DNA of 64,000 nt, taken from the NCBI GenBank assembly GCA_023382715.1, contig JAHDWP010000009.1:1-64000 (forward strand), written 5' to 3'. The notes under the pieces were generated by a model. That model was not told where the DNA came from and searched no databases. It saw only the letters and a program-made list of their open reading frames with translations. This DNA comes from Anaerolineae bacterium (lineage in GTDB: Bacteria > Chloroflexota > Anaerolineae > Aggregatilineales > Aggregatilineaceae). This document shows positions 2,286-31,328 of the stretch, piece after piece (within the stretch, counting starts at the first letter, position 1; each line of letters begins with the position of its first letter). Made by a program: the position numbers and the translations under genes.

Positions 2286-3635
2286 ATGGAACTGGTGCGG
2301 GTTGTGAGGCAGCATAGCCGGTTGCGGGTCATCTCCGGTGCAGTGCTCGTTGCGCTCTTCCTGGTCTGCGCTCTGCCCTGGGGTGCGGCGCCGCGCGCCC
2401 GCGCGCAGGGTGACCTGGCCGGGCAGGTCGTGGCGCTGGTCAACAGCCTGCGCGCCAGCCTGGGCCTGAGCGCCTGGACGGTTGATCCCATCCTGATGGC
2501 CGTCGCCCAGAATCATGTCAACTGGATGGTTGCCACCGGCCAGTACGGTCACACTGGCGAAGGTGGCTCCACGCCCCAGGATCGCGCCCTGGCCGCCGGT
2601 TACGCGGGCAGCGTCGCCGAGAACTGGGTCGCCGGCCCCGGCATGACTCCGGCGGGCGCAGTGGATTGGTGGCGCAACAGCGGCATTCACTACGCGACGC
2701 TCACCTCGACGGCGCAGCATGTCGGCGTGGGCGTGGTGCGGGGCAGTCGCGGCACGGTCTACGTGCTGGTGGCCGGGCGACCGTCGCCGCCGCGCCGCCC
2801 CGTTGCCGCGGGCGAAGCAGCCCCCGAAGAAGAGGAAGACGAGGATTGGCCCGTCGTCGTGCCGATCACCCGCGCCGCGCCGGGCGAGAACGGGCGCGTC
2901 GTCCACGTGGTACAGCAGGGCCAGACCGCCTGGGCTATCGCTGCCGTGTACCAGGTGGACCTCGACGAGATGCTGCGCATCAACAACCTGGTGCGCCCGG
3001 TGGTGCTCAAGCCGGGCGATGAAGTGATCGTCCGGCTGGGCGAAGGCGAGTCCCCACCGCCGACCCCGGCCCCGCCCACCGAGTACACCATCCAGCAGGG
3101 CCAGACGATCTGGGAAGTCGCCGTGACGCACGGCCTGACCGTTGATCAACTGCTCGGTTTCAACGGCCTGACGCGCGAGGATGTGATCCTGCCAGGGACC
3201 GTGCTGCGTCTCGTCCCCTCGGAGCCAGGCGCGGAGTCGCCGCCGCAGGAAGAATCGGCCAGCGTCACCGCCACCGAAGAGCCATCCCCCGCGCCGCCCA
3301 CTGCCGCGCCCACTGACGCACCCCCCACTGATGCGCCCCCTGCGGCGACGCTGACAGTCACCCCCCTGCCCAGCCCGACGCTGCGGCTGATGCCGACGAT
3401 CACGCCTGCCTATTCGCCCACGCCCGCAGCGCAGCCGCCGAGCGGAACGCCCGTCGCGCTGGCGGAGATCCCCCTTGCTACGCGGGCGCCAGCCAGCGCT
3501 CAGCCTGCGGCGAGCGCATCGGGCGGCAATGGCAAGGATGAGATGCTCATGGTCAGCCTGGGCGTGCTGGGAGCGGTGTGGGTGATGGTCGGGGGAATTG
3601 GGCTGCTGGGCTACGTGACCAAGAGGCGGCGCTAG
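2286..3635 (+). CDS. CAP-domain protein with two LysM repeats and C-terminal membrane anchor
   Basis: 449 residues. Order of parts: signal or anchor helix (about 15-38), CAP/SCP domain (about 42-165, with AQNHVNWM, YGHTG and the AENW motif), acidic linker, LysM 1 (about 204-253), LysM 2 (about 266-314), a Pro/Thr/Ala-rich stalk (about 315-415), and a single C-terminal transmembrane helix followed by KRRR. LysM binds peptidoglycan and CAP domains are extracellular, so this is probably a wall-binding surface protein held by its tail. The ATG at 2286 has GAGG only one base upstream; a GTG at 2295 would have better spacing, so the exact start is uncertain. Confidence 0.85.
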   Translation: MELVRVVRQHSRLRVISGAVLVALFLVCALPWGAAPRARAQGDLAGQVVALVNSLRASLGLSAWTVDPILMAVAQNHVNWMVATGQYGHTGEGGSTPQDRALAAGYAGSVAENWVAGPGMTPAGAVDWWRNSGIHYATLTSTAQHVGVGVVRGSRGTVYVLVAGRPSPPRRPVAAGEAAPEEEEDEDWPVVVPITRAAPGENGRVVHVVQQGQTAWAIAAVYQVDLDEMLRINNLVRPVVLKPGDEVIVRLGEGESPPPTPAPPTEYTIQQGQTIWEVAVTHGLTVDQLLGFNGLTREDVILPGTVLRLVPSEPGAESPPQEESASVTATEEPSPAPPTAAPTDAPPTDAPPAATLTVTPLPSPTLRLMPTITPAYSPTPAAQPPSGTPVALAEIPLATRAPASAQPAASASGGNGKDEMLMVSLGVLGAVWVMVGGIGLLGYVTKRRR

Positions 3636-3673
3636 GCGAGCCTCAAGCGCCAGATGCGCAGTGATGAGACCAT

Positions 3674-4252
3674 CTAGCGCCCCAGGTCGGGCAGCGTGAA
3701 GACCTCGGCCAGCGCCAGGGCCAGGCCGGGGAACAGATCGCTGGCGTCCATAGACTCGCCGGCGCGGTACGTCTCGACGACCGACTGCCCCTGGCGGTAG
3801 CGGTAGAGGGCTTTCTGACGGGGCAGCGCCACCCAGACCTCGGCGGTGCCCGCCGCGAAGTAGTCCCCCACCTTCTGCACCACGTCCTCGAACTGGTCAT
3901 CGGGCGACATGACCTCGACGGCCAGCGTCGGCGCGCCGGGGTAGGGGCGCTCAAAATCCCAGTCAGCGGGAATGTCGGCTGTGCGGATATAGGAAGCGTC
4001 GGGCACGCGGGCGATCCGGACGCTGTCATCCTTCTCAGAGAGCACGTAGAGCAGGCTGTCGGTGAAGACAAGCCCGGACTTGTGCTCTGCCATATAGGCA
4101 TCGAGTGCCCAGGCGATCCGCTTGGCGATCCAGTTGTGCAATCCTCCGACAGGCGTCATTGTGACAATCTCCCCTCCCACCACCTCCACGCGCGCGTCGG
4201 AGCCGAGCCGCAGCAGATCGTCAACGGTCAGGGGGCGCGTGATCACAGCCAT
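3674..4252 (-). CDS. Uma2 family (DUF820) restriction-endonuclease-like protein
   Basis: 192 residues, full length for Uma2. The PD-(D/E)XK type core is visible as VPDASY (Asp about 85) and LAVEVMSPDD (Glu about 113), with VGDYFAAGTAEVWV following as in the family. Uma2 proteins occur in many copies in Cyanobacteria and Chloroflexota; their role is not established. The ATG at 4252 has AAGGAG about nine bases upstream. A TATAAT-like element (4285-4290) lies inside the end of the neighbouring DUF433 gene, so it may have its own promoter. Confidence 0.88.
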   Translation of the reverse strand: MAVITRPLTVDDLLRLGSDARVEVVGGEIVTMTPVGGLHNWIAKRIAWALDAYMAEHKSGLVFTDSLLYVLSEKDDSVRIARVPDASYIRTADIPADWDFERPYPGAPTLAVEVMSPDDQFEDVVQKVGDYFAAGTAEVWVALPRQKALYRYRQGQSVVETYRAGESMDASDLFPGLALALAEVFTLPDLGR

Positions 4253-15292: not shown

Positions 15293-15988
15293 ATGACTCA
15301 CGACGATCACCGTTCACGGGGACGACTTGCGCCGCCGCGTCCTGACAATCATTGGGGTGCGGGCGTTCCCCGGGGGCGCCAAACTCCTCCACGACGCACC
15401 GATCCTCCCGCCGAGTACTGGGATTCGCCGCCTCAGCAAGAGGAGCCTTACATCGCTCCAGAGGCGCATGAATCGTACCCTTATGGAGGCGACGAGAGGT
15501 ATCCACAGCGCCCGACCGCCCCGCTCTACCCCGATGAGCGCCGGGCCGCCACACGCGTTTATCCGGCCAGCGAGCAGGTCGCCGACGACTTGCGCGCCAG
15601 CGACTATGGGTACGCGCCGGTCAACATCGCGCCAGTCAATGCCGGCTATTATGTGGACCCGCCCTTCGTCAGCCCTCCCCCAACCGGCTACGACCCGGAG
15701 CCGGAATCCAACATGCTGACCATGCAGGAACGCTACATCCTGCTGATGCGCACCATCGAGCTTCACAACGACGATTGGCGCCCGGCGAGCATCCGCTCCA
15801 ACGAGGCAAAAGAGCGCCTGGAGGCCTACCTGATCCCGCGCAACAAGCGGATGGAGCTAAAAGAGGCCATTCATCGCAACCGGTTCATGGTCATCACCAT
15901 TGACCGGCTGGGCAACACGACGATCAAAGAGCCAAAGCGCGAGGGGCCGCTGCGCCGCCTGCTGCGCTGGCTGTTTGGCGGCGACTGA
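15293..15988 (+). CDS. Protein of unknown function, Pro-rich with a basic C-terminal tail
   Basis: 231 residues; I do not recognise the family. Residues 1-135 are rich in Pro, Arg, Tyr and acidic residues and look disordered. Residues about 138-215 look folded, mostly helical (LTMQERYILLMRTIELHNDD, then a segment KERLEAYLIPRNKRMELKEA, then RFMVITIDR). The tail RRLLRWLFGGD could form a short amphipathic membrane-binding helix. AGGGAGG stands at good distance before the ATG. A long AT-rich leader precedes it and a perfect 18-base-pair hairpin follows, so it is probably transcribed alone. Confidence 0.7.
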   Translation: MTHDDHRSRGRLAPPRPDNHWGAGVPRGRQTPPRRTDPPAEYWDSPPQQEEPYIAPEAHESYPYGGDERYPQRPTAPLYPDERRAATRVYPASEQVADDLRASDYGYAPVNIAPVNAGYYVDPPFVSPPPTGYDPEPESNMLTMQERYILLMRTIELHNDDWRPASIRSNEAKERLEAYLIPRNKRMELKEAIHRNRFMVITIDRLGNTTIKEPKREGPLRRLLRWLFGGD

Positions 15989-18097: not shown

Positions 18098-19477
18098 ATG
18101 ATGCGCCGGTTCCGCAAGCTGCGCCGCTTCGTGATCGAGGAGAACCGTCTGATCGCGCCGTTCAACGAGCCGGCGCGCGATCTGAGCATCCTGAACAAGC
18201 CGCTCAAGATTCACCACGCCGACGTGCTCGACGCGCTGGGCGGCCCGGCCAGCGTCGAGCCGCCCCTGGCCTCGATTCACGACCTGGCCCGGCTCGCCGA
18301 GCGCGGCGACGAGCTGATCGTCTACCGCGACAACCTGTATTTCGACGAGGAGTTCTTCGGCGTATTCTACAATCAGGCGCGCGCCAGCGGCGTGCCCTGC
18401 CGGGCGGCGCTGGCCGCCAACGACGCCGCCTGGCTGAAGTATGCCGTTCCCCTGTCGCGGCTCAGGCCGGTGGGCGACCGCGCGCCGCTCTATTACCCGC
18501 TCGATCTGTGGTACTTCCCCGATGGCTATGCCGAGCCGCACAAATGGCAGCCCATCCCCATCGCCAGCGATTGCAAGGAGATCGGCTACTACAACGTGCC
18601 GGACTCGATGGCCAATCTGCGCCCAGCCGCCACCGAAGGAGAGATCGCGCGCGATCTCGACCTGACGCACCTGCTCACCGAGCGCACCTGCCTGTCCATT
18701 GATAGCTGGGTGCACCTCTACTTCGCCAACGTCATCCTGGGCGTATTCTCGCGCGGCAAGCGTTTCGAGAAGCGCGTCACCGAGCACAATCTGCTGGCGC
18801 TGCGGATGCTCTGGCGGGCCATCGTCGAGCAGAAGCAGGTGCTCACCTCTTCCGAGGTGGTGCAGGTGGGCGAAGGCACGACGATTGACCCGTCGGCGGT
18901 CATCCTCGGCCCGACGACCATCGGGCGCAACTGTGCCATCGGGCCGGGCGTGGTCCTGGACAACTCGATCATCGGCGACAACGTGAACATCGCCCAGGGC
19001 TGCCAGATCATGCTCAGCGTGGTGGGCAGTCACTGCTTCCTGCCTTTTCGGGCGGCGCTGTTCATGTCCACGATCATGGAATACTCGATCATCGCCCAGA
19101 ACACGTGCATCCAGATGGGCGTCATCGGGCGCAACAGCTTCGTGGGCGCGGGCACGACCTTCACCGACTTCAACCTGCTGCCGGTGCCGCTGCGCGCGCT
19201 GAACGCCTACGATCAGCTCGAAGACACCGGCCAGCCCGTGTTGGGAAGCTGCGTGGGGCACAACGCACGCCTGGGATCGGGGTTAGTGGTCATGCCCGCC
19301 CGCGTGGTCGAATCGGACGTGGTGCTGTTCGCCTCGCCAGAGCGCCGGGTGATCAACCGTAACGTCAGCTATGAGGAGAGCGATCACCACAAGGTGCGCG
19401 CTTCCATCGCCAAGCAGCACCGGCGGCGCTATCCGCGCGTGGCCGAATCTGAAGAAGCGTTCCTGGAGCCGTGGTAA
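18098..19477 (+). CDS. Left-handed beta-helix (hexapeptide repeat) transferase-like protein
   Basis: 459 residues. The N-terminal about 250 residues are not recognised and include a helical part with DELIVYRDNLYFDEEFF. From about 255 to 440 hexapeptide repeats follow the [LIV]-G-x4 pattern (VGEGTTIDPSAVILGPTTIG, then VIGRNSFVGAGTTF), the left-handed beta-helix of acyltransferases and sugar nucleotidyltransferases. Sugar-nucleotide motifs (GGxGTR) are absent from the N-terminus, so a GlmU-type pyrophosphorylase is unlikely. The next gene starts 15 bases after the stop and encodes an acyl-ACP reductase homologue, suggesting acyl or alkyl chains as substrate. That link is an inference. Confidence 0.7.
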   Translation: MMRRFRKLRRFVIEENRLIAPFNEPARDLSILNKPLKIHHADVLDALGGPASVEPPLASIHDLARLAERGDELIVYRDNLYFDEEFFGVFYNQARASGVPCRAALAANDAAWLKYAVPLSRLRPVGDRAPLYYPLDLWYFPDGYAEPHKWQPIPIASDCKEIGYYNVPDSMANLRPAATEGEIARDLDLTHLLTERTCLSIDSWVHLYFANVILGVFSRGKRFEKRVTEHNLLALRMLWRAIVEQKQVLTSSEVVQVGEGTTIDPSAVILGPTTIGRNCAIGPGVVLDNSIIGDNVNIAQGCQIMLSVVGSHCFLPFRAALFMSTIMEYSIIAQNTCIQMGVIGRNSFVGAGTTFTDFNLLPVPLRALNAYDQLEDTGQPVLGSCVGHNARLGSGLVVMPARVVESDVVLFASPERRVINRNVSYEESDHHKVRASIAKQHRRRYPRVAESEEAFLEPW

Positions 19478-19492
19478 CAGCCATCCGAACCT

Positions 19493-20575
19493 ATGAGCGA
19501 CGCTGACACTTTCGCCTTCATCATCCATCCCATTGATCCCAAGTCCGATGTCGCTCGCAAGTACCCGCTGCTGGGCAAGCTGCTGAGCGAAGGGCAGATC
19601 AACTTCTTTTCGCGCTTCTTCCCCCCGGTCTACATCTCCGAGATCAGCGGCGTGCACTCGGCGGCGACGGGCAGAGAGGTGCGCGGCTGGTTCATCGCCT
19701 GCCCGTTCACGCCCAAGACCATGCTCAGCCTGCCGGTGGAAACGGTCTACCGCAAGATCGTCGCCTGCGGGCACATGGCCGAGCGGTTGGGCGCGCGCAT
19801 CCTGGGGCTGGGCGCGTACACGTCCGTGGTGGGCGACGCCGGCGAGACGATCGCCCGGCGGCTGAACATCCCCGTCACCACCGGCGACGCCTACACGGTC
19901 AGCATGGCCGTGGCTGCGGTGCGCGAGGCAGCGCGCCGGATGGGGCTGCGCATGGACGAGTCTACGGCGGCGGTCGTGGGGGCCACCGGCGCGATCGGGC
20001 AGGTGTGCGCGCAAATCCTGGCCCGCGAAGTGGCCGAGCTGATCCTGATCGGGCGGCACGCAGAGACGCTGGCCGACGTGCACGCGCAATGCAGCGGCCA
20101 GCGGGCGCGCGTGCGCAGCGGGACCGACCTGAACGCGATCAGCGAGGCGAGCCTGGTGCTGAGCGTGACCAGCGCCACCACCGCCGTGATCGAGCCGGAG
20201 CATCTCAGGTCGGGCGCGGTGGTGTGCGACGTAGCCCGCCCGCGCGACGTGGCGCGGCGCGTGGCAGAGCTGCGCGACGATGTGCTGGTCATTGACGGCG
20301 GGATGGTCGAGGTGCCGGGGCCGGTGGACTTTGGCTTCGATTTCGGCTTCCCGCCCGGCAAAGCCTACGCCTGCATGGCCGAGACGATGGCCCTGGCCCT
20401 GGAAGGGCGCTACGAAGACTACAGCGTGGGCAAGCAGATCACGCTGGCCCAGGTGGAAGAGATCGGCGCGATCGCAGCGCGGCACGGCTTCCGGCTGAGC
20501 GGTTTTCGCAGCTTCGAGCGTGTCGTCACCGACGCGCAGATCGCCGCCGTGCGCGAGCGGGCGCGGCGGGCGTAG
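19493..20575 (+). CDS. Homologue of cyanobacterial long-chain acyl-ACP reductase
   Basis: 360 residues. It follows the cyanobacterial acyl-ACP reductase (AAR) pattern throughout: TTGDAYTVSMAV, the nucleotide-binding VVGATGAIGQVCAQ (glycines at 163-169), IDGGMVEVPG, then KAYACMAETMALALEGRYED and SVGKQITLAQVEEIGAIAARHGF. The Cys in YACMAE, residue 294, corresponds to the acylated active-site Cys of AAR. AAR reduces fatty acyl-ACP or acyl-CoA to fatty aldehyde with NADPH. Automated pipelines may call it shikimate dehydrogenase-like. No aldehyde-deformylating oxygenase is adjacent; its partner here is the beta-helix gene just upstream. Family recognition is by memory of motifs, not by alignment. 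Confidence 0.8.
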   Translation: MSDADTFAFIIHPIDPKSDVARKYPLLGKLLSEGQINFFSRFFPPVYISEISGVHSAATGREVRGWFIACPFTPKTMLSLPVETVYRKIVACGHMAERLGARILGLGAYTSVVGDAGETIARRLNIPVTTGDAYTVSMAVAAVREAARRMGLRMDESTAAVVGATGAIGQVCAQILAREVAELILIGRHAETLADVHAQCSGQRARVRSGTDLNAISEASLVLSVTSATTAVIEPEHLRSGAVVCDVARPRDVARRVAELRDDVLVIDGGMVEVPGPVDFGFDFGFPPGKAYACMAETMALALEGRYEDYSVGKQITLAQVEEIGAIAARHGFRLSGFRSFERVVTDAQIAAVRERARRA

Positions 20576-20891
20576 CGGGGGTGGGCGCTCGAACGGCGGA
20601 CTTCCGCCAGCCTGCCCCCCATCCCCGGCCCTTCCCCCCGATCTCGCTGCGCCGGGCGGGAGCGAGATCAGAAATCGTGTGAAAATTGTGTGAAACCAGC
20701 CTGGCCGGCTTGCTCCTTGCGGGACAGGCTGCGGCGCTGAAGCTGTCCTATCGGCGTTCTCATGGTATAGTGGGGCTGCCAGCGAGTCAGCATAGCGCGC
20801 GCCAGACTCCCGCGTGGGGGGGTGCGTGCCGGCAGCGCGCGGCGTTTTCGCTTGCCAGATGCGGCCCCACCTATGGGAAGGATGCACAGGG
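20576..20891. other. Intergenic region with repeat fragment and candidate promoter
   Basis: Holds a fragment of a dispersed repeat (CCCCATCCCCGGCCCTTCCC near 20616), a direct repeat of GTGTGAAA (near 20680-20695), and a TATAGT element with an upstream TG (20766-20771) that could be an extended -10 promoter for the signalling operon. Confidence 0.45.
20763..20771 (+). promoter_or_regulatory. Candidate extended -10 promoter of the response regulator-kinase operon
   Basis: TGGTATAGT matches the TGnTATAAT extended -10 form, about 120 bases upstream of the start codon. No clear -35. Confidence 0.35.
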
Positions 20892-21800
20892 ATGGGCAAG
20901 GGCAGAATCCTGGTTGTGGAAGACGACTTCGACATCTCGAACATGCTGCGGATTTACTTCAGCGGGCAGGGCTACGAGGTCCAGGTCGCCCCGCGCGGCG
21001 GCGATGTGTTGCAACTCACGCGCAAGCAGCTCCCCCAGCTAATTGTGCTGGACATCATGCTGCCCGACATGAACGGCTATGATGTCTGCCGCCAGCTTCG
21101 CTCGACGGCGCGCACCAGCCACATTCCGATCATCTTCCTGACGCAGAAGGACGAGCGCAGCGACAAGATCGCCGGCCTGGAACTGGGGGCCGACGACTAC
21201 ATCACCAAGCCGTTCGACATCGAAGAGCTGAAGCTGCGCGTCAAGAACCAGATCGAGCGCGCCGCGCGCGACCACTACACCGACCCCAACAGCGGCCTGC
21301 CCAGCAGCGGCCTGATCGAAGAGAAGCTGCGCGAGGTCATGCGCGAAGACAAGACCTGGGCCTATCTGGACGTTCGGCTGCAAGACTACGAGGCGTTCAA
21401 GGATGTCTACGGCTTCGTGGCCGCCAACGACGTGCTGCGCTTCATGGCGCTGCTGGTGGGCGAAGTGCTCGACGAGCTGGGCACGCCGGAAGATTTCGCC
21501 GGGCACGCCGGCAGCGACAATTTCGCGATTATCACCTATTCCGACAAAGCCGAGACCATGCTCAGGCGGCTGACCGAGCGTTTCGCCGAAGAAGTCCAGA
21601 CTCATTACTCCTTCATTGACCGCGAGCGCGGTTTCATGATGAAAGACAACGACAAGGTGCCTTTGATGTCCCTGGCTATCGGCTGGGTCAGCAATGCGAC
21701 GCGGCAGTTCGCCGACATCCGCGAGATCACCGAGATGGCTGCCGAGAGCCGCCGGCACGGGGGCGCCGGCGCGCAGACAACGATCACCACCGAATGGTAG
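20892..21800 (+). CDS. Response regulator with degenerate GGDEF-like output domain
   Basis: 302 residues. Receiver domain about 5-122: acidic pocket EDD at 10-12, phospho-acceptor Asp 54 in LDIMLPD, Lys in ITKPF. From about 135 to 300 the length and order match a GGDEF domain (LPSSGLIEEKL, then YGFVAANDVLRFMALLV), but the signature is AGSDNF (206-211) in place of GG[DE]EF. Diguanylate cyclase activity is therefore unlikely; it may bind nucleotide or partner proteins. I chose the ATG at 20892 (MGKGRILVVEDD) because the receiver fold starts there and GGAAGG is upstream. The giant sensor kinase gene follows 64 bases later. Confidence 0.85.
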   Translation: MGKGRILVVEDDFDISNMLRIYFSGQGYEVQVAPRGGDVLQLTRKQLPQLIVLDIMLPDMNGYDVCRQLRSTARTSHIPIIFLTQKDERSDKIAGLELGADDYITKPFDIEELKLRVKNQIERAARDHYTDPNSGLPSSGLIEEKLREVMREDKTWAYLDVRLQDYEAFKDVYGFVAANDVLRFMALLVGEVLDELGTPEDFAGHAGSDNFAIITYSDKAETMLRRLTERFAEEVQTHYSFIDRERGFMMKDNDKVPLMSLAIGWVSNATRQFADIREITEMAAESRRHGGAGAQTTITTEW

Positions 21801-21864
21801 CGCGCCGCGCGCCCCTCGCTCTCGACCGCGCTACGGCACCCTGAGAGTGCGCGAGCGATGACCG

Positions 21865-24800
21865 ATGCTTGAATTCTCTCTCATCCTCATCGGCCTGATC
21901 TTCTTCGCCTGGCTGTTCGTGCTGGTGCGCCAGGCGCAGCGCGGCCTGGACGTCGGTCATGAGGCTCTGGCGCGGCCCGTCGTGCCGATGAGTCTGCTGT
22001 CCAGCGACGACGCAGTGATTGTGGCCGAGGGGCGCGGGCACGTCGTCTTCGCCAACGAGTCAGCGCGCCGCTGGCTCGGGCTGGACAGCGAAACGCCCAC
22101 CCTGACCGTCATGGCCCGCCAGGTGCGCCCTGCCGAAACATTCTACGATCTGCTCGCCCAGCCCGGACGAGCCGCGCTGCGCATCGGCCCGCGCCAGGTC
22201 GAGGCTGTCTCCCATCTCATCCCCACCCCCGACGGCGAGCGCATGGTGCTGCTGCTGCGCGAGCGAAGCGGCGACGCGCCCGCCGCCCCGGTCGAGTTCG
22301 ACCCGCTGCGCGCCCTGTCCATTGCCGAAGACATCAGCCGGGCGGCAGCGACCAGCACCGACCTCCCGGCGCTGGCAGAAGCGATCCTGGCCAGCCTGGA
22401 GTCGGTCATCGCCTTCGACACAGCGGAGATCACCCTGGCCGACGCAGAGGGTGACCGGCTGCGCCCGGTGGGCGGCGCGCGCCGCGCCGAGACGGGCGGC
22501 CTGGCTCCCCTCGACAGCGCAGCGCGCGAGGCAGCCTACGCGCCAGGCGAGGGCTACACGGGCTGGATCGCCATGTACCGCCAGCCGCTGCTCATTGAAG
22601 ACGTGAGCGCGCGCAACGACGTGCAGCCCCAGGCGGAGGCCGCTGCCTTCCAGAGCTATGTCGGCGTGCCGCTGCTGGCCGGGGATCGCTGTATCGGCAC
22701 GCTGGAGCTGTCGCACCATGCGCGCGGGGCGTTCGGACGGCGCGAGCTGGCGCTGCTGGAAGCGGTCGCCGGGCAGGTGGCGGCGGCGCTGCAGATGGCC
22801 CGTTTCGCCCAGGCGCAGACCGAGCGCCTGGACGAGCTAGCCGGCGTGCGCCAGGTCGCCGAGACGTTCGGCTGGCTGGGCGACACGCCGACCCTGCTCG
22901 CCCAGCTTACCGAGCGCGTGGCCGCCCTGGTGCAGGCCGAGATCTGCGGCGTGCTGCTCTACGACGAGGAGCAGCAGATTCTCTCCGCCCAGACGCCTTT
23001 CCATGGCGTGCCGGACGTGCGCATCGCCGGGCACCGCGCTGCTCTCGCTGACGGGGAAGAGCTGGCCCGTGTCTGGCGCGAAGGCACCGCCTGGCTGACC
23101 AACGAGCCGGGCGAAGACCTGTTGCGCGCGCTGGGTCTCAGCCAGATTATCACGGCCATCACCATACACAGCCTGGCCCTGATCCCGCTGGCGGCCGGCG
23201 CGCGGCGGGTGGGCCTGCTGCTGGTCGCCAACGCGCGCGAAGAAGCCCGTTTTGGCGAAAGCGACCTGCGCCAGTTGGTCGCGCTGTCCGCGCCAGTGGC
23301 GGCCCTGCTGGACAACGCGCGCCTGTACGCGCAGGCTCAGCGCCGCGCGCACGCCCTGGGCGGCTTGCAGCAGATCGCCCAGGCCAGCGGCGCGCTGCGC
23401 AACCCCGCCGAGCTATACGCCCAGATGACGGCGCGCATCGCCGCCCAGCTTGACGCAGAGCTGTGCGGCATCCTGCTCTATGACAGCGAGGAACAGGTGC
23501 TGGTCAGCCAGCGGCCTTTCTTCGGCATGGACGACGAGGAGCGCGTGCGCTTCTACCAGGTGCCCTCGCCGCCGGAGAGTCCGGTCGCGCGGCTGTGGCA
23601 GGAACAGGACACCTGGCTGTGCAACGATTTGCAGGGCGACCCGGCAGCAGCGGAAACGGCGCTGGGCGCGCTGGCCGCCGAGATGGGGATGCGCCAGACG
23701 GTCGTGGCCGCCCTGGTGTCCGGCGGGGGACGGCTGGGCATGATCCAGGTAGCCAACCGGCGTGATGGGCGCGGCTTCAGCCAGGACGACGCGCACCTGC
23801 TGGCCGTCTTCGCCGGGCAGGCGGCCATGCTCATTGACAACGCCCGCCTGTACGGTGAGATGCAGCGCCGCACGCACGAAGCCGAGGGGCTGCGGGCCAT
23901 CGCCGCCATGACCACGCACGGCATCCCCACCCAGGAGACCGTCGAGGAGGTGCTCATCGCCGTCGCCAACGTCGCGCAGTCCGGCTACGTGGCGCTGGCG
24001 CTGGTCGAGGAGAGCAGCGGGGCGCTGGTGCTCGACCCGCAGTATGTGTGGGGGGCCGCGCTCAGCGCGCCTTTCCGCATTGACGCCTACGCGCCCGGTT
24101 TTGAGCAGAGCGTGCTCGTCTCGCGGCGGCCCTTGCTCAGCCATAACCTGCCGGCGGACGGGCGCGTGCTGCCCCAGTACCGCCCGCTGGTCGAGCGCTT
24201 CGCCCTGCGCGACTGGGTGCAGGTGCCTCTCACCATCCAGGATCGCTGCATCGGCGAGCTTACCGTCGCCAACCGCGCTGTCGGCGTGCCCTATGACGAA
24301 GGCGATGTAGACCTGCTGGCGGCAATCGCCACCCAGGTCGCGGCGATGGTAGACCGGATGCGCCTGGGCACGACCAGCGACCAGGATTTGCACGCCCGCG
24401 TGCAGGAACTGAACGCCCTGGGCCGCGTCACCCACGAGCTGAGCAGCACGCTGGACCTGGATCGTATCCTCGACGCCATCCGCCAGGAGGCCCTGCGCTC
24501 GACGGATGCCAGCGCCGCGAGCATCGTCCTGCTGGCCGACCGTGACGAATGGGAGCGCCCGGACAGGCCGGTGATCCAGCGGCGCTTTGGCGAGGGGCGC
24601 GTGCTGCGCGACCTGGCCCCGATCGAGCGGGCGGCGATCCTCAGCGGTGAAATGGTGACCGTAGACGATTATCAGGGCAGCGCGCTCCAGGCGCGCCCGG
24701 CCAGCGCGCGCTCGGCCCTGGCCGTGCCCATCACCTTTGGCGACCAGGTGATCGGCCTGATCCACCTTCACAGCGACCGACCGGAGGTCTTCAGCCAGAG

Positions 24801-27800
24801 CGTGGCCGGTTTCGCCGTCGTGCTGACCGACCAGGCCACCGTCGCCATCACCAATGCGCGCCGCTACCAGGAGCAGATCGAGGCCAACCGCGCGCTGCGC
24901 GTGCGCGCCGAGCGCATGGGCCGCATCTTCGAGTTGGGCGAAATGTTCCGCGCCGGGGCCAGCCTGCAGGAGCTGCTCGAAGAGGTGGCGCACAGCATTC
25001 AGGAGACGGTGGGCTTCAACGCCGTGCTGATCAGCGTCGTGGACGAAGGGGGCAGCGTGCTGCGCCGCACGGCTCAGGCCGGGCTGCCGCTGGCCGCCTT
25101 TGAGGAACTGCGCCAGACCACACCCCCGCTCGAACAGGCCCACAGCCTGATGCAGGAGAGCTACCGCATCAGCAACAGCTACTTCCTGCCCGCCGAGGGT
25201 GCCGGGCAGCTCACCGCCGGGCTGTCCACCTATTCCGTGCTGCAAGAGCGCATGGGCAGCGGCCCGCGCGCCTGGCACCCGGACGACCTGCTGCTCATCC
25301 CGCTCAGCGGGTCGGGCGGGCAGTTGCTGGGGCTGATCAGCGTGGACGAGCCGCAGTCGGGCCGCCGGCCCACCTTCGCCACCGTCGAGGCGCTGGAGAT
25401 CTTCGCCGGGCAGGCCGCCTTCAGCATCGAGAACTACCGCCTGGTCGAGCGCCTGCAGCACGAGGCGGAGGCCACCCGCCGCGAGCGCGACCGCCTGGCC
25501 CAGCTTCACCGCGTCGCCAGCAAGATTCAGGCGGCCAAGGACGTTCCGACCCGCCTGCAAGTGGTCGCTGAGGGCATTCACGAGGCGGGCTGGGGCCACG
25601 TGGTGATCACGCTGCGCGACGAGCGCCTGGAGCCGACCGCGCTGATCCAGGTGGGCTATGCGCCCGGCGAAGTGGCCCGCTTGCAGAACGAGATCATCCC
25701 CGGCGCGGTGTGGCGGCGCTGGATCAACGACCTGCGCTTCTACGATCTGAAGCTGGGCGCGGGCTACTACCTGCGCTACGACCATCCCTGGGTGCGCGCC
25801 AACGTGCTGAAGGAGCGCGCCGACGCCGCGCACCCCGTCCCCGCCGACCACTGGCACCCGCTCGATATGCTCTATCTGCCGCTCATCGGCCACGACCAGC
25901 AGCGTATTATCGGCATCATCGCTATGGACAGCCCGGCGGATGGGCGCGCCCCGACCGAAGCCTCGCTGCTGCCCTTTGAGCTGTTCGCGTCGCAGGCGGC
26001 GGCGGCCATCGAGACGACGCGCCTCACCCAGGAGACGGCCAGCGCCGCCGAGCAGGAGCAGCGCCTCAACGAGGTGATGGAGGCGGTCTCGGCTTCCATC
26101 CGCCCGGAGCAGGTGGTCGCGGCTGTGGCGCGCGGCCTGGGGCGGCTGGTGCCCTTCACGCGCATGAGCGTCGCCGTCTACGACGAGACGGCCCGGCACT
26201 TCGAGGTCTACCAGGCCGATGTCCTCAGCGGCCCCGCGGTTGACGTGGCGCGCGACGTGCCGCGCGACGCTGCCGGCACAGCGACCTGGGAAGCGTTCCG
26301 GCTGGCGACCGCCCACTTCTACCAGCTTGAGCGCGACGAGGCGGCCCGCACGCAGCACACCGACCTGGGCGCGTGGTACGAAAGCGGCGAGCGCAGCACG
26401 CTGCTCGTCCCGATGATCTCCGGCGTGCAGGCCATTGGCGTGCTCCATCTGGGCACAGAGCTTGAGAACGCCTTCGGCTTCGAGGAGAACCGCGACCTCA
26501 TCCAGCGCCTGGCCAACCTGTCGGCGGTGTCGCTGGAGAACGTGCGCCTGTTCGCCAGGGCGCAGGAGCGCGCTACCGCGCTGGACGCGCAGGCGCAGCG
26601 CATGGCCCTGCTCAACCGTGTGGCCCTGGCGCTGGCCCAGACGCTCGACCTGGAAAACATTTTCGAGATCGCCCTGCGCGAGACAGCGATCTCGCTCGGC
26701 ATCGGCGAAGGCGCGGCGCTGCACATGGACGCGGAGCGCGGCCAGGGCGTGGTTATTGTCGAATACCCGCGCGGCGATGCCCCGCCCGAACAGGTCATTG
26801 ACCTGGCCAGCGATGCGGCGCTGCGCCGCGTGCAGGAGGAGCTGATCCCGCTGGTCGTCGAACGGGCAAACGGCGGCGATCTGTACGAAGCGGCGCAGCA
26901 GTGGATGCGCCGCCAGGACGTGCAGCGCTCGCTGCTGGTGCCGCTGGTCGCCGGCGGGCAGGTGATCGGCGTGCTGCGCCTGGACGCGCTGCTGGCAGGG
27001 CGCGTCTTCACCGACGAGCAGATCGAGCTGGCCCAGACCATCGCCAGCCAGGCGGCTATTGCCGTGCAGAACGCGGCCTTGTTCGAGCAGACGGTGCTGC
27101 GCACGCGCGAACTGGAGACGCTCTTCGAGTCGGCGCAGGCGACGGCGGTCACGCTCGATCTCAACGAAGTGGCTCGCCGCGTGACGATGCAGATGCTCGG
27201 CGCGCTGGACGCGGACACCTGCGCGGTCTATTTGTGGGACGACGTGAGCGATACGCTGACTGTGCACGGCGAGATCAGCGCCCGGCCTGCCGGTGGGCCG
27301 GGTGAGCAGCCCGGCGATGTGTACAGCCTGGCTCCTTATCCCCTGCGCGCCAGAGCGCTGCGCGAGCGCGAGCTTGTGGTTATCCGCGCCAACCAGGAAG
27401 ACCTGCCGCCCGGCGAGCGCGACCTGATGGCCCGCCATGCGGCGGCGACGCGGATGCTCATCCCCCTGGTGGTCAACGACATCGCCATCGGCCTGGTCGA
27501 AGTCGAGCAGCTTGATCCGATGCGCCGCTTCCCCACTGGCGCGCTGCGCCTGGCCCAGGCATTGGCCAGCCAGGCGGCCATCTCCATCGAGAACGCGCGC
27601 CTGCAAACCGAGACGCGGCGCACGGTCGAAGAGTTGTACGTGATCACCGAAATATCGAGCGGGCTGTCGGCGGCGGATACGCTGCAAGACCTGCTGACGG
27701 TGATTGACGCGCTGCTGCCCAGCCTGACCGACGCCGAGCACTTGTACGTGGCGCTGTACGACAGCGCCAGCGAGCAGATCAGCTTCCCGCTGGCCACCCT

Positions 27801-29871
27801 GGTGACTGAGGACCGTCCGCTGGACGAGCCGCCGCGCCCGCTGGGCAACGACGAGTTCTCGACGATCATCCGGCGCAGAGCGCCGCTGCTGCTGGCCGGC
27901 GAGACCGCCGAGAGCGCGCGACACAGCCTGGGAATCGAGACGATGATGCCCGACGCACGCTGCTTCCTGGGCGTGCCACTGCTGGTCGGCGACGAAGTGA
28001 TCGGCGTGCTGGCCGTGCGCGATGACCGCGATCCGCTGACGTTCACGCTCAGCGACGGGCGCACCCTGACCACCATCGGCGCGCAGTTGAGCATCGCCGT
28101 GCAGAGCACCCGCCTCTTCCAGCAAACGCTGGAGCTGGCCGAGGAGCTGGAGCAGCGCGTCCGCGAGCGCACCGCCGAGCTGGAACAGGAGCGCCAGCAG
28201 CTTGCCACGCTGTACGGCATCACCACCGAGCTGGCCACCAGCCTGGACATGGAGCGCCTGCTCCACCGCGCGCTGGAGATGGTCGCTCGCGCGGTGGGCG
28301 CGGTGCAGGGCGCGATTCTGCAGATCAACGCGGAAACCGAGCGGCTGGTCGTCCGCGCGCGCTTCGGCGAGCCGGGCGAGCAGGCGGTCCCCGAAGGCGC
28401 AGAGCCGCCCTCGCTGGCGCTGGGCCAGGGCCTGACCGGCTGGGCCGTGCGCCATCGCAAAGCGGTCGTGGTGGACGACGCGCAGAGCGACTCGCGCTGG
28501 CTGCAACTAAGCACGGGCGGCGCGGAGCCGCGCGCGGCGCTGGTCGCCCTGATTGAGACCAACGAGGATATTCTGGGCGCGATCGCGCTCTACAGCGACC
28601 GGCCCGCCGTCTTCGGCCAGGAGCACCTGCGACTGGTGACGGCGGCAGCGCACCAGGTCGCCAACGCCATGAACAACGCCGAGTTGTACGGGCTGATCCG
28701 CGACCAGGCCGACCGGCTGGGCGCGCTGCTGCGCCAGGAACAGGTCGAGGCGACCAAGAGCGCGGCCATCCTGGACTCGGTGGCGGACGGCGTGATGGTC
28801 GCCGACGAGCACGGCGAGATCATCGTCTTCAACCAGACGGCGTCGCGCATCCTGGGACTGCCGGTCGAGGTCGTGCTGGGCCGCTCGACGGCAGACGTGG
28901 CCGGGCTGTATGGGACCGGGCGCGCGCGCTGGGCCAGCGCCGTGCAGCGCTGGCAGCGCGATCCGGCGAGTTACGAGCCGGGCGAGTACCTGGAAGAGCG
29001 CCTGGAACTGGAAGACAAGCGCGTGATCAGCGTGCGCGTGTCGCCGGTCGTCCTGGGCGACCAGTTCCTGGGCACGGTGTCCGTCTTCCGCGACATCACG
29101 CGCGAGGTCGAAGTAGACCGGCTCAAGAGCGAGTTCGTGGCGACGGTCTCGCACGAGCTGCGCACGCCCATGACTTCGATCAAGGGCTACGCCGACCTGT
29201 TGCTGCTGGGCGCTGCCGGCGACATGGCCCCTCAGCAGCGCGGCTTCCTGGAGACGATCAAGCACAATGCCGACCGCCTGACCAAGCTGGTCAATGACCT
29301 GCTTGACATCTCGCGCATTGACCAGGGGCGCGTCGAGATGCGCTTCGGCCCGGTGGACGTGCCCGGCGTGGTCGAGCGGACGGCGGCGCACCTGCGTGGT
29401 CGCTGCAAAGATGAGGGGCGGACCATGCAGGTTGTCGCGGACGTGCCCGCCGACCCGTCGTTGACTGTGTGGGGCGACTACGACAAGGTGGCCCAGATTC
29501 TGACCAACCTGGCCGACAACGCCTTCAACTACACGCCAGAGGGCGGCACCATCACCCTGGCCGCCCGCCGCGACAGACCAGACGACCCGGTGATTCTCTC
29601 CGTGACGGATACCGGCATCGGCATCCCGCCGGAGATCGCCGGGCGCGTCTTCGAGCGATTCTTTCGCGGCGAAGACACGCACGAATTAGTGCTCGATACC
29701 CCTGGCACCGGGCTGGGGCTGTCTATCGTGCGCGAGCTGGTGGAGTTTCATCAGGGCCGCATCTGGTTCGACAGCCAGGCCGGACAGGGGACGACGTTCT
29801 ATGTGATGCTGCCCGCGCACGCGCCAGACAGCGAGGCGCTGGACAGGGCGGCGCAGGCTAGTGGAGAGTGA
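21865..29871 (+). CDS. Giant sensor histidine kinase with about twelve GAF domains
   Basis: 2668 residues, the largest gene in the window. Layout: one N-terminal membrane helix (about 4-24); a PAS-like segment (about 45-130); twelve consecutive GAF-type units, roughly 152-315, 322-490, 498-672, 675-835, 845-1005, 1015-1195, 1205-1390, 1395-1565, 1575-1745, 1750-1915, 1920-2090 and 2113-2275; a coiled coil near 2085-2112; a PAS domain (about 2296-2410); HisKA with the phospho-acceptor His 2430 in SHELRTPM; and HATPase with NLADNAFNYTPEGG, DTGIGIP, FERFFRG and GTGLGLSIV. The kinase core looks intact. GAF domains sense small ligands or chromophores; I see no obvious bilin Cys motif. Response regulator genes flank it on both sides. 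Confidence 0.93.
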   Translation: MLEFSLILIGLIFFAWLFVLVRQAQRGLDVGHEALARPVVPMSLLSSDDAVIVAEGRGHVVFANESARRWLGLDSETPTLTVMARQVRPAETFYDLLAQPGRAALRIGPRQVEAVSHLIPTPDGERMVLLLRERSGDAPAAPVEFDPLRALSIAEDISRAAATSTDLPALAEAILASLESVIAFDTAEITLADAEGDRLRPVGGARRAETGGLAPLDSAAREAAYAPGEGYTGWIAMYRQPLLIEDVSARNDVQPQAEAAAFQSYVGVPLLAGDRCIGTLELSHHARGAFGRRELALLEAVAGQVAAALQMARFAQAQTERLDELAGVRQVAETFGWLGDTPTLLAQLTERVAALVQAEICGVLLYDEEQQILSAQTPFHGVPDVRIAGHRAALADGEELARVWREGTAWLTNEPGEDLLRALGLSQIITAITIHSLALIPLAAGARRVGLLLVANAREEARFGESDLRQLVALSAPVAALLDNARLYAQAQRRAHALGGLQQIAQASGALRNPAELYAQMTARIAAQLDAELCGILLYDSEEQVLVSQRPFFGMDDEERVRFYQVPSPPESPVARLWQEQDTWLCNDLQGDPAAAETALGALAAEMGMRQTVVAALVSGGGRLGMIQVANRRDGRGFSQDDAHLLAVFAGQAAMLIDNARLYGEMQRRTHEAEGLRAIAAMTTHGIPTQETVEEVLIAVANVAQSGYVALALVEESSGALVLDPQYVWGAALSAPFRIDAYAPGFEQSVLVSRRPLLSHNLPADGRVLPQYRPLVERFALRDWVQVPLTIQDRCIGELTVANRAVGVPYDEGDVDLLAAIATQVAAMVDRMRLGTTSDQDLHARVQELNALGRVTHELSSTLDLDRILDAIRQEALRSTDASAASIVLLADRDEWERPDRPVIQRRFGEGRVLRDLAPIERAAILSGEMVTVDDYQGSALQARPASARSALAVPITFGDQVIGLIHLHSDRPEVFSQSVAGFAVVLTDQATVAITNARRYQEQIEANRALRVRAERMGRIFELGEMFRAGASLQELLEEVAHSIQETVGFNAVLISVVDEGGSVLRRTAQAGLPLAAFEELRQTTPPLEQAHSLMQESYRISNSYFLPAEGAGQLTAGLSTYSVLQERMGSGPRAWHPDDLLLIPLSGSGGQLLGLISVDEPQSGRRPTFATVEALEIFAGQAAFSIENYRLVERLQHEAEATRRERDRLAQLHRVASKIQAAKDVPTRLQVVAEGIHEAGWGHVVITLRDERLEPTALIQVGYAPGEVARLQNEIIPGAVWRRWINDLRFYDLKLGAGYYLRYDHPWVRANVLKERADAAHPVPADHWHPLDMLYLPLIGHDQQRIIGIIAMDSPADGRAPTEASLLPFELFASQAAAAIETTRLTQETASAAEQEQRLNEVMEAVSASIRPEQVVAAVARGLGRLVPFTRMSVAVYDETARHFEVYQADVLSGPAVDVARDVPRDAAGTATWEAFRLATAHFYQLERDEAARTQHTDLGAWYESGERSTLLVPMISGVQAIGVLHLGTELENAFGFEENRDLIQRLANLSAVSLENVRLFARAQERATALDAQAQRMALLNRVALALAQTLDLENIFEIALRETAISLGIGEGAALHMDAERGQGVVIVEYPRGDAPPEQVIDLASDAALRRVQEELIPLVVERANGGDLYEAAQQWMRRQDVQRSLLVPLVAGGQVIGVLRLDALLAGRVFTDEQIELAQTIASQAAIAVQNAALFEQTVLRTRELETLFESAQATAVTLDLNEVARRVTMQMLGALDADTCAVYLWDDVSDTLTVHGEISARPAGGPGEQPGDVYSLAPYPLRARALRERELVVIRANQEDLPPGERDLMARHAAATRMLIPLVVNDIAIGLVEVEQLDPMRRFPTGALRLAQALASQAAISIENARLQTETRRTVEELYVITEISSGLSAADTLQDLLTVIDALLPSLTDAEHLYVALYDSASEQISFPLATLVTEDRPLDEPPRPLGNDEFSTIIRRRAPLLLAGETAESARHSLGIETMMPDARCFLGVPLLVGDEVIGVLAVRDDRDPLTFTLSDGRTLTTIGAQLSIAVQSTRLFQQTLELAEELEQRVRERTAELEQERQQLATLYGITTELATSLDMERLLHRALEMVARAVGAVQGAILQINAETERLVVRARFGEPGEQAVPEGAEPPSLALGQGLTGWAVRHRKAVVVDDAQSDSRWLQLSTGGAEPRAALVALIETNEDILGAIALYSDRPAVFGQEHLRLVTAAAHQVANAMNNAELYGLIRDQADRLGALLRQEQVEATKSAAILDSVADGVMVADEHGEIIVFNQTASRILGLPVEVVLGRSTADVAGLYGTGRARWASAVQRWQRDPASYEPGEYLEERLELEDKRVISVRVSPVVLGDQFLGTVSVFRDITREVEVDRLKSEFVATVSHELRTPMTSIKGYADLLLLGAAGDMAPQQRGFLETIKHNADRLTKLVNDLLDISRIDQGRVEMRFGPVDVPGVVERTAAHLRGRCKDEGRTMQVVADVPADPSLTVWGDYDKVAQILTNLADNAFNYTPEGGTITLAARRDRPDDPVILSVTDTGIGIPPEIAGRVFERFFRGEDTHELVLDTPGTGLGLSIVRELVEFHQGRIWFDSQAGQGTTFYVMLPAHAPDSEALDRAAQASGE

Positions 29872-29882
29872 TGGTTGTGCCG

Positions 29883-30272
29883 ATGGCTCGCATACTGATT
29901 GCCGAGGACGAACGCGACATCCGCGACTTAATCGAGTTCACGCTGAAGTTCGGCGGCCATGAAGTGATCACGGCGCGCAACGGGGCCGAGGCGGTCGAGC
30001 TGGTTCCCCAAAACAAGCCCGATCTCATCCTGCTCGATGTGCGGATGCCGCGTATGACCGGCTATGAGGCGTGCCGTGCGATCAAGGCCCTCGACGGGCT
30101 GCAGGACACCCCCATTGTCTTCCTTTCGGCCAAAGGGCAGCAGAACGAGATGGAGTCCGGCATGGAGGCGGGGGCCTACGACTACATCCTCAAGCCATTC
30201 GCGCCGGATCATCTGAACGAGCGAGTCAATGCGATCCTGGCGAAATCGAAGAAACCACCAGAACAAAGCTGA
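29883..30272 (+). CDS. Single-domain response regulator (CheY-like)
   Basis: 129 residues from MARILIAEDE. Acidic pair at 9-10, phospho-acceptor Asp 52 in LLDVRMPRM, Ser in FLSAKG, and the conserved Lys in YILKPFAPDH. There is no output domain. In-frame starts GTG 29868 and ATG 29871 also exist and overlap the kinase stop; I prefer 29883 because family members begin there. It most likely takes phosphate from the kinase encoded just upstream. Confidence 0.9.
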   Translation: MARILIAEDERDIRDLIEFTLKFGGHEVITARNGAEAVELVPQNKPDLILLDVRMPRMTGYEACRAIKALDGLQDTPIVFLSAKGQQNEMESGMEAGAYDYILKPFAPDHLNERVNAILAKSKKPPEQS

Positions 30273-30296
30273 GTCTGGTCGTCCGCGAGACACGGC

Positions 30297-31328
30297 ATGA
30301 GCGCAATCACCGTCGAAGGCGAGCTGGTACATTATGAGGTGTTGGGGCGTGGCCGCCCGGTCATCCTGTTGCATGGCTGGCTTGGCTCGTGGCGCTATTG
30401 GGTGCCGGCCATGCAGCACCTCAGCATGAAGTACCGCGTCTACGCGCTCGACCTGTGGGGCTTTGGCGACTCCGCGCGCAACCCGGCGCGCTATCATTTT
30501 GCGGCGCAGGCGAGCCTGGTGACCGAGTTCATGGCTCAGCTTGGCATCGTGAAGGCGGCGCTGGTCGGGCACGACCTGGGCGCGGCGATTGCGGCGCACC
30601 TGGCGGTGAAGCATGCCGACCGCGTGCCGCGCCTGCTGACGGTCTGCCCGCCGCTGTTCGAGCTGGTAGAGCATCCCGCTTCACCGGTGCCTGCCGCGCC
30701 CCTGCTCGCCCGCCAGCCGCCGTCACCCCCTGGCGATGGCGGGGCGAGTTTGCAGGCGGCGCTGGAACAGACAGCGCGCGCCATCGGCGAAGCGCGGCTG
30801 GCCGCCGCCCCGGGCAAACCCTCGCTGAGCGGTGCGGTTCCAGCCTCGCCCGCGAGTGGCTCGTCCGCCGGAGACTCCGCCGCCAGGCGGCCCGCGCCGC
30901 GCCCCAACCCGCTCAAGGCGCACCTGGCCACGCACGACCGGCTGGAGCTGCTCAAGCAGTCTGTCGAGGCCGGGCCGGATCAGGACAAGCTGCGTGTTGA
31001 GATCGAGAAAACCGACCCGCTGGCCTTCACCGCCAGCCTGGACGCCTTCGACACGGTGGATACGCTGCGCGATCTGCGCACGCTGACCGCGCCCACCGTG
31101 CTGGTTTACGGCGACAAGGACTCGCTGTTGCCGGCCCCGGCGAAGAAGAAGCTCGCCGCGCTGACCGGCGGGCGCAGCACGTTCGGCGTGATGTCGCTGG
31201 CCGGGACGCGGCACTTCCCCATGCTGGAGGACAGCGCCGCCTTCTCGCGGCTGCTGATGGCATTCCTCGAAGCGCCGGACGTGACTAAAATCGCGCTGAA
31301 AGACCAGTGGGTGCGCCGCGTGCGCTGA
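30297..31328 (+). CDS. Alpha/beta hydrolase with Asp nucleophile and low-complexity cap
   Basis: 343 residues. Core fold: VILLHGWLGSWRYW, YALDLWGFGDSA, nucleophile elbow VGHDLGAA with Asp 93, and C-terminal VLVYGDKDSLLP plus TRHFPMLED giving acid and His. An Asp nucleophile is typical of haloalkane dehalogenases and epoxide hydrolases, while lipases and esterases have Ser. Between about 128 and 206 the usual cap is replaced by a Pro/Ala/Ser-rich low-complexity stretch. Starts 24 bases after the response regulator gene, so it may be part of that operon. Substrate unknown. Confidence 0.82.
   Translation: MSAITVEGELVHYEVLGRGRPVILLHGWLGSWRYWVPAMQHLSMKYRVYALDLWGFGDSARNPARYHFAAQASLVTEFMAQLGIVKAALVGHDLGAAIAAHLAVKHADRVPRLLTVCPPLFELVEHPASPVPAAPLLARQPPSPPGDGGASLQAALEQTARAIGEARLAAAPGKPSLSGAVPASPASGSSAGDSAARRPAPRPNPLKAHLATHDRLELLKQSVEAGPDQDKLRVEIEKTDPLAFTASLDAFDTVDTLRDLRTLTAPTVLVYGDKDSLLPAPAKKKLAALTGGRSTFGVMSLAGTRHFPMLEDSAAFSRLLMAFLEAPDVTKIALKDQWVRRVR

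Follow-up and report, generated by a model that had tools for sequence, protein, structure and literature searches.

Acyl-ACP reductases (AARs) take part in the synthesis of alkanes in cyanobacteria and are also known from pyrrole natural products. The occurrence of an AAR-like gene in a member of the Anaerolineae (contig JAHDWP010000009.1) raises the question of which reaction its product catalyzes and where the product of that reaction would go. The window, i.e., the whole stretch of DNA analyzed, comprises 64,000 nucleotides, and the features of the gene are as follows:

19493..20575 (+): gene for the AAR-like acyl-thioester reductase, assigned by profiles, PDB sequence matches, and fold
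19979..19999 (+): GATGAIG dinucleotide-binding loop, residues 163–169, which aligns with residues 162–168 of the AAR of Synechococcus elongatus (SeAAR; PMC7089970)
20372..20374 (+): codon of Cys294, the predicted acyl-accepting nucleophile, which aligns with Cys294 of SeAAR and the cysteine of PigE and is invariant in all rows of the alignment

The reading frame starts with ATG at 19493, its stop codon ends at 20575, and the product of 360 amino acids contains all the motifs named in an earlier note on this DNA (TTGDAYT, GATGAIG, YACMAE with the cysteine at residue 294, and VGKQITLAQVEEIG). The gene is present once in the source genome and has orthologs with 55–95% identity in approximately 70 of the 101 genomes of the host order (a count that leaves out genome G023, one of the 71 listed matches, with a partial match of 26.6 bits). 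In a genome scan, nearly all carriers bore names of Anaerolineae or other Chloroflexota. Among 35 aligned orthologs, neither Cys294 nor any glycine of the nucleotide loop (GxxGxxG) varies. The single copy, the orthologs, and this invariance mark the reading frame as a real gene. An antisense reading frame of 553 codons at 19283–20944 was taken for an artifact of the high GC content. The AAR-like gene of an entry titled as the cyanobacterium Pleurocapsa minor (JAHHHY010000008.1) groups with those of Anaerolineae in the tree, so the title is probably wrong.

In Pfam, all matches of the reductase are to nucleotide-binding domains of the Rossmann type, including that of shikimate/quinate dehydrogenase (PF01488; 48.3 bits vs. 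a cut-off of 24.3; residues 147–262). The best NCBIfam profile is that of PigE (NF053554; 211.6 bits over residues 7–356), whose cut-off of 850 is not reached; all 35 members of the reductase group match the N-terminal thioester-reductase domain of PigE. The curated AAR profile (TIGR04058) scores 130.5 bits, which is below its cut-off of 449.7, and none of the 251 Chloroflexota genomes contains a gene above this cut-off, which the S. elongatus control exceeds. The closest sequence matches in the PDB are PigE (4ppm), followed by AAR (6jzq, 6jzu).

The structural comparison proposed in the earlier note came out clearly in favor of an AAR-like fold. An AlphaFold model of the reductase (pLDDT 89.8) superposes with cyanobacterial AAR (6jzy) over 323 residues (Z 35.4, 2.6 Å), and Cys294 aligns with Cys294 of SeAAR. 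The next match is the reductase domain of carmabin TAD (Z 33.0), and the rows after it are unrelated dehydrogenases with Z scores of 14–15; the shikimate dehydrogenase YdiB (1npd) reaches a Z of 13.2 at 6.1 Å over 228 residues. Neither glutamyl-tRNA reductase nor shikimate dehydrogenase is a likely identity of the protein, since the part they have in common with it is the nucleotide-binding domain only. The branches leading to SeAAR and PigE in the tree are very long, and no conclusion was therefore drawn from the branching order between them and the Chloroflexota clade.

The characterized relatives of this domain, SeAAR, whose functional residues have been described (PMC7089970), PigE of prodigiosin biosynthesis (PMC8341465), and TamH of tambjamine biosynthesis (PMC9594044), all act on acyl thioesters. 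With SeAAR (TIGR04058; PDB 6JZU/6JZY), the reductase shares fold, length, Cys294, the loop GATGxIG, R189, R79, and K80. By contrast, R73, the residue that docks the aldehyde-deformylating oxygenase (ADO) in SeAAR, is replaced by proline, Y247 by arginine, R193 by threonine, and R314 by lysine, so that the positions of the NADPH-phosphate residues R189/R193/R314 are occupied by R, T, and K. With PigE and TamH, the reductase shares the cysteine, and PigE is its best match nearly over the full length both by profile and by PDB sequence; unlike PigE and TamH, the reductase has no attached or adjoining class III transaminase and is located outside any pyrrole cluster, and its nucleotide loop reads GATGAIG vs. 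GYPGSIC in PigE. The carmabin TAD reductase domain (PDB 9E4S/9E50) has the same fold over its full length, but differs in being part of a peptide synthetase and has a sequence identity of only 17–18%.

Judging from sequence and model, the gene product very probably reduces an activated fatty acid to an aldehyde; confidence in an acyl-thioester reductase chemistry is high. The reductase in all likelihood works like AAR, yet it is neither a member of the AAR family as curated nor a PigE, whose defining transaminase it lacks. The earlier description as an acyl-ACP reductase homolog thus holds for the type of enzyme, with cysteine and nucleotide loop kept, and not for membership in the AAR family proper, given the missed AAR cut-off, the absence of R73 and Y247, and the closer profile match to PigE. 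The claim that the protein follows cyanobacterial AAR motif by motif was overstated: the structure-based identity with the Synechococcus enzyme is approximately 30%, and the N-terminal domain of PigE scores higher.

As far as can be told from the genomes, the reductase plays no part in alkane synthesis. The earlier note had pointed out that no ADO gene adjoins the reductase gene; such a gene is also absent elsewhere in the source genome and from all 61 genomes searched, whereas the S. elongatus control was positive. This supports the suggestion that the reductase serves a purpose other than alkane formation, of which the ether or ester lipids named in that note are possible examples. The conserved neighborhood of the gene contains no gene for an acyl carrier protein, transaminase, acyltransferase, or alcohol dehydrogenase. 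The source genome (G000), called 98.6% complete, has no glutamyl-tRNA reductase above the cut-off.

What the neighborhood does contain is a left-handed beta-helix (LbH) protein and a sensory operon, neither of which the earlier note mentions and which tell more about the gene than the features named there. In the window, the region 18098–31328 extends from the LbH gene to the last hydrolase and includes, besides the reductase gene:

18098..19477 (+): LbH partner, a hexapeptide protein of 459 amino acids, 15 nt upstream of the reductase gene; linked in 64 of 75 loci and co-occurring across the phylum
20814..21800 (+): response regulator with a weak GGDEF match; the start is probably at 20892 by alignment
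21865..29871 (+): giant histidine kinase of 2668 amino acids with about 11 GAF stretches, PAS, HisKA, and HATPase_c (Pfam); its place is conserved across loci
29868..30272 (+): gene for a small response regulator; its first 4 nt are shared with the kinase gene
30297..31328 (+): alpha/beta hydrolase, the last gene of the cluster

The fullest gene order, which is found in many of 80 Anaerolineae loci, is DUF4388, Ras-like GTPase, alpha/beta hydrolase, V4R, LbH, AAR, response regulator, giant multi-GAF kinase, small regulator, and alpha/beta hydrolase. The gene directly upstream of the AAR-like gene encodes LbH in 64 of the 75 loci whose flank is long enough (median gap 8 nt), and the response regulator gene follows directly downstream in 53 of 77, at a median distance of 88 nt. 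The GTPase block lies upstream in 36 of 64 loci, and the cut-off used picked up V4R in 19 of 73. No V4R gene was found in the 64-kb window; the DUF4388–GTPase–hydrolase block of the source genome is located on another contig (C46). A protein of 231 amino acids without a Pfam match, encoded at 15293–15988 (+) of the window, has 53–55% identity with proteins encoded at two loci within the same genus.

The model of the LbH protein (mean pLDDT 79.5; weak over residues 166–188 and approximately 241–320) has the fold of a sugar-1-phosphate nucleotidyltransferase followed by a left-handed beta helix. It matches the archaeal GlmU-like protein ST0452 (PDB 5Z09/2GGO) over both domains (Z 27.1), but the sequence identity is approximately 16%, and all GlmU-type profiles score far below their cut-offs. 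By eye, the N terminus has a nucleotidyltransferase-like start (ILNKPL) and a degenerate GxGxR loop. Because this signature loop, unlike that of ST0452, is not recognizable, the nucleotidyltransferase site of the LbH protein may be inactive, for which GMPPA is a known precedent.

The reductase and LbH genes are co-inherited also outside their shared locus. Among the 101 genomes of the host order, 70 have both genes, six have LbH alone (G014, G023, G044, G053, G087, and G088), and 25 have neither (Fisher test, 2e-18, kinship ignored); the 25 include the listed g35 genomes, where the GTPase is missing too. In 251 genomes of Chloroflexota, the AAR-like gene and LbH each occur in 44, and both occur together in 41 (Fisher test, 7e-40, kinship ignored). 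In families f30, f40, and f66, LbH is part of a (V4R-)LbH-regulator-kinase operon without AAR, and the reductase, mostly fused, is encoded elsewhere; the pairing thus survives the loss of linkage. However, the tie is not strict: besides the six genomes of the order, G204, G316, and G250 in the phylum-wide set have LbH with its operon but no AAR, which makes the reductase look like an accessory of the LbH module rather than its core. The AAR-like genes without LbH are fusions in G244 and G284, of a sub-clade that lies beside wax ester synthase/diacylglycerol acyltransferase (WS/DGAT) in other genomes, and a transaminase fusion in G245. In eight loci well beyond Anaerolineae (L170–L174 and L177–L179), LbH forms a conserved operon with a regulator and a giant kinase, in some cases also V4R, and AAR is not linked; in L174, hydrolase, GTPase, and DUF4388 take the place of the kinase.

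Elsewhere in the phylum, the enzyme type has other neighbors and fusion partners and is therefore used with different aldehyde consumers. In seven Chloroflexota fusions (L131, L133, L134, L137, L141, L142, and L144), the AAR-like domain is preceded by a domain of approximately 300 amino acids that matches no Pfam or NCBIfam family; a split counterpart of this domain was not found in 61 relatives (search without a positive control). In most f30 genomes, the fusion is followed by an alpha/beta hydrolase. Behind a second fusion paralog, three genomes of a single genus of Chloroflexia (g135; L142, L143, and L158) have a WS/DGAT gene, and the two genes plausibly form a fatty-alcohol/wax-ester pair; in L142, the WS/DGAT gene just behind the fusion is at 2369–3739 (–). 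An unfused relative with 59% identity is flanked by a PlsC-type acyltransferase (L135), and one locus of Chloroflexota encodes a transaminase-reductase fusion like TamH (L136). The plasmid relatives that have an annotation are labeled as class III aminotransferases and are located in pig-like clusters in all three cases inspected.

On balance, the reductase probably provides the fatty aldehyde for a pathway of lipid or signal formation that is connected with the LbH/two-component module, as both genes are co-inherited even when unlinked. What comparison has established is the fold, the position of the nucleophile, the nucleotide loop, and the absence of ADO. In the proposed mechanism, acyl-ACP or acyl-CoA would hand its acyl group to Cys294, and the thioester would be reduced once by hydride transfer from NAD(P)H bound at the GATGAIG loop, releasing a fatty aldehyde. 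The aldehyde would most likely end up in a lipid, be it an alcohol, an ester, or an ether, or in a lipid-derived product, through a pathway that is presumably linked to the LbH protein and the two-component system. The lipid enzymes that adjoin relatives elsewhere in the phylum (WS/DGAT and the PlsC-type acyltransferase) speak for a lipid, but they are neighbors of distant paralogs, three of them in one genus. A tentative extension is that in a phylum-wide module of Chloroflexota, the multi-GAF two-component system, in many cases with Ras-like GTPase and V4R, and the degenerate nucleotidyltransferase/LbH protein control or use the reductase in making a hitherto undescribed lipid or signal derived from a fatty aldehyde.

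It is also possible, if rather improbable, that the signal is the aldehyde itself, or else the acylated state of the reductase, with a putative small hydrophobic ligand sensed by the linked V4R protein or the multi-GAF kinase in place of a bulk lipid. Sensor genes are constant neighbors in Anaerolineae, and V4R-LbH-regulator-kinase operons occur in Chloroflexia; however, the family represented by the window keeps AAR without V4R, and some genomes with the kinase operon lack AAR. A route as in PigE and TamH, where an unlinked class III aminotransferase would turn the aldehyde into a fatty amine used in making a secondary metabolite, agrees with the best profile and with the transaminase-reductase fusions in L136 and the pig-like clusters on plasmids; it is quite unlikely in view of the conserved neighborhood without a transaminase and a near-universal presence in the order, which looks like core metabolism rather than a secondary metabolite. 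A role in providing the fatty alcohol that WS/DGAT would build into wax esters is suggested by the fusions in the one genus of Chloroflexia and is less likely still: WS/DGAT was found in only one of the 41 genomes searched (none of 14 controls matched), which has no true AAR-like gene. Since no WS/DGAT gene was found in the source genome, this route is unlikely in the source organism. Least credible is a function as glutamyl-tRNA reductase in a genome without a HemA above the cut-off. The reductase is the best HemA match of the genome (TIGR01035; approximately 48.5–49.1 bits), but the score is far below the cut-off of 209.55 and limited to the nucleotide-binding domain (residues 129–262), and the fold over the whole length is that of AAR, whereas glutamyl-tRNA reductase aligns over 189 residues with a Z of 14.8.

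In titles and abstracts, with partial coverage of the literature, no description of the pairing of AAR, LbH, and sensory operon was found, nor any paper on the locus under acyl-ACP reductase in Chloroflexi, V4R/DUF4388 or fatty aldehyde in Anaerolineae, or wax esters in Chloroflexus. An enzyme of the AAR type is widespread in the host order without an alkane partner or a linked transaminase, and the co-inherited LbH protein and sensory operon provide it with a concrete, testable partner. Conversely, the reductase offers a first lead on what the conserved signaling operon of Chloroflexota may control. The genomes with unlinked homologs or LbH operons presumably include Chloroflexus and Roseiflexus, whose unlinked homologs would make the question testable in cultured strains.
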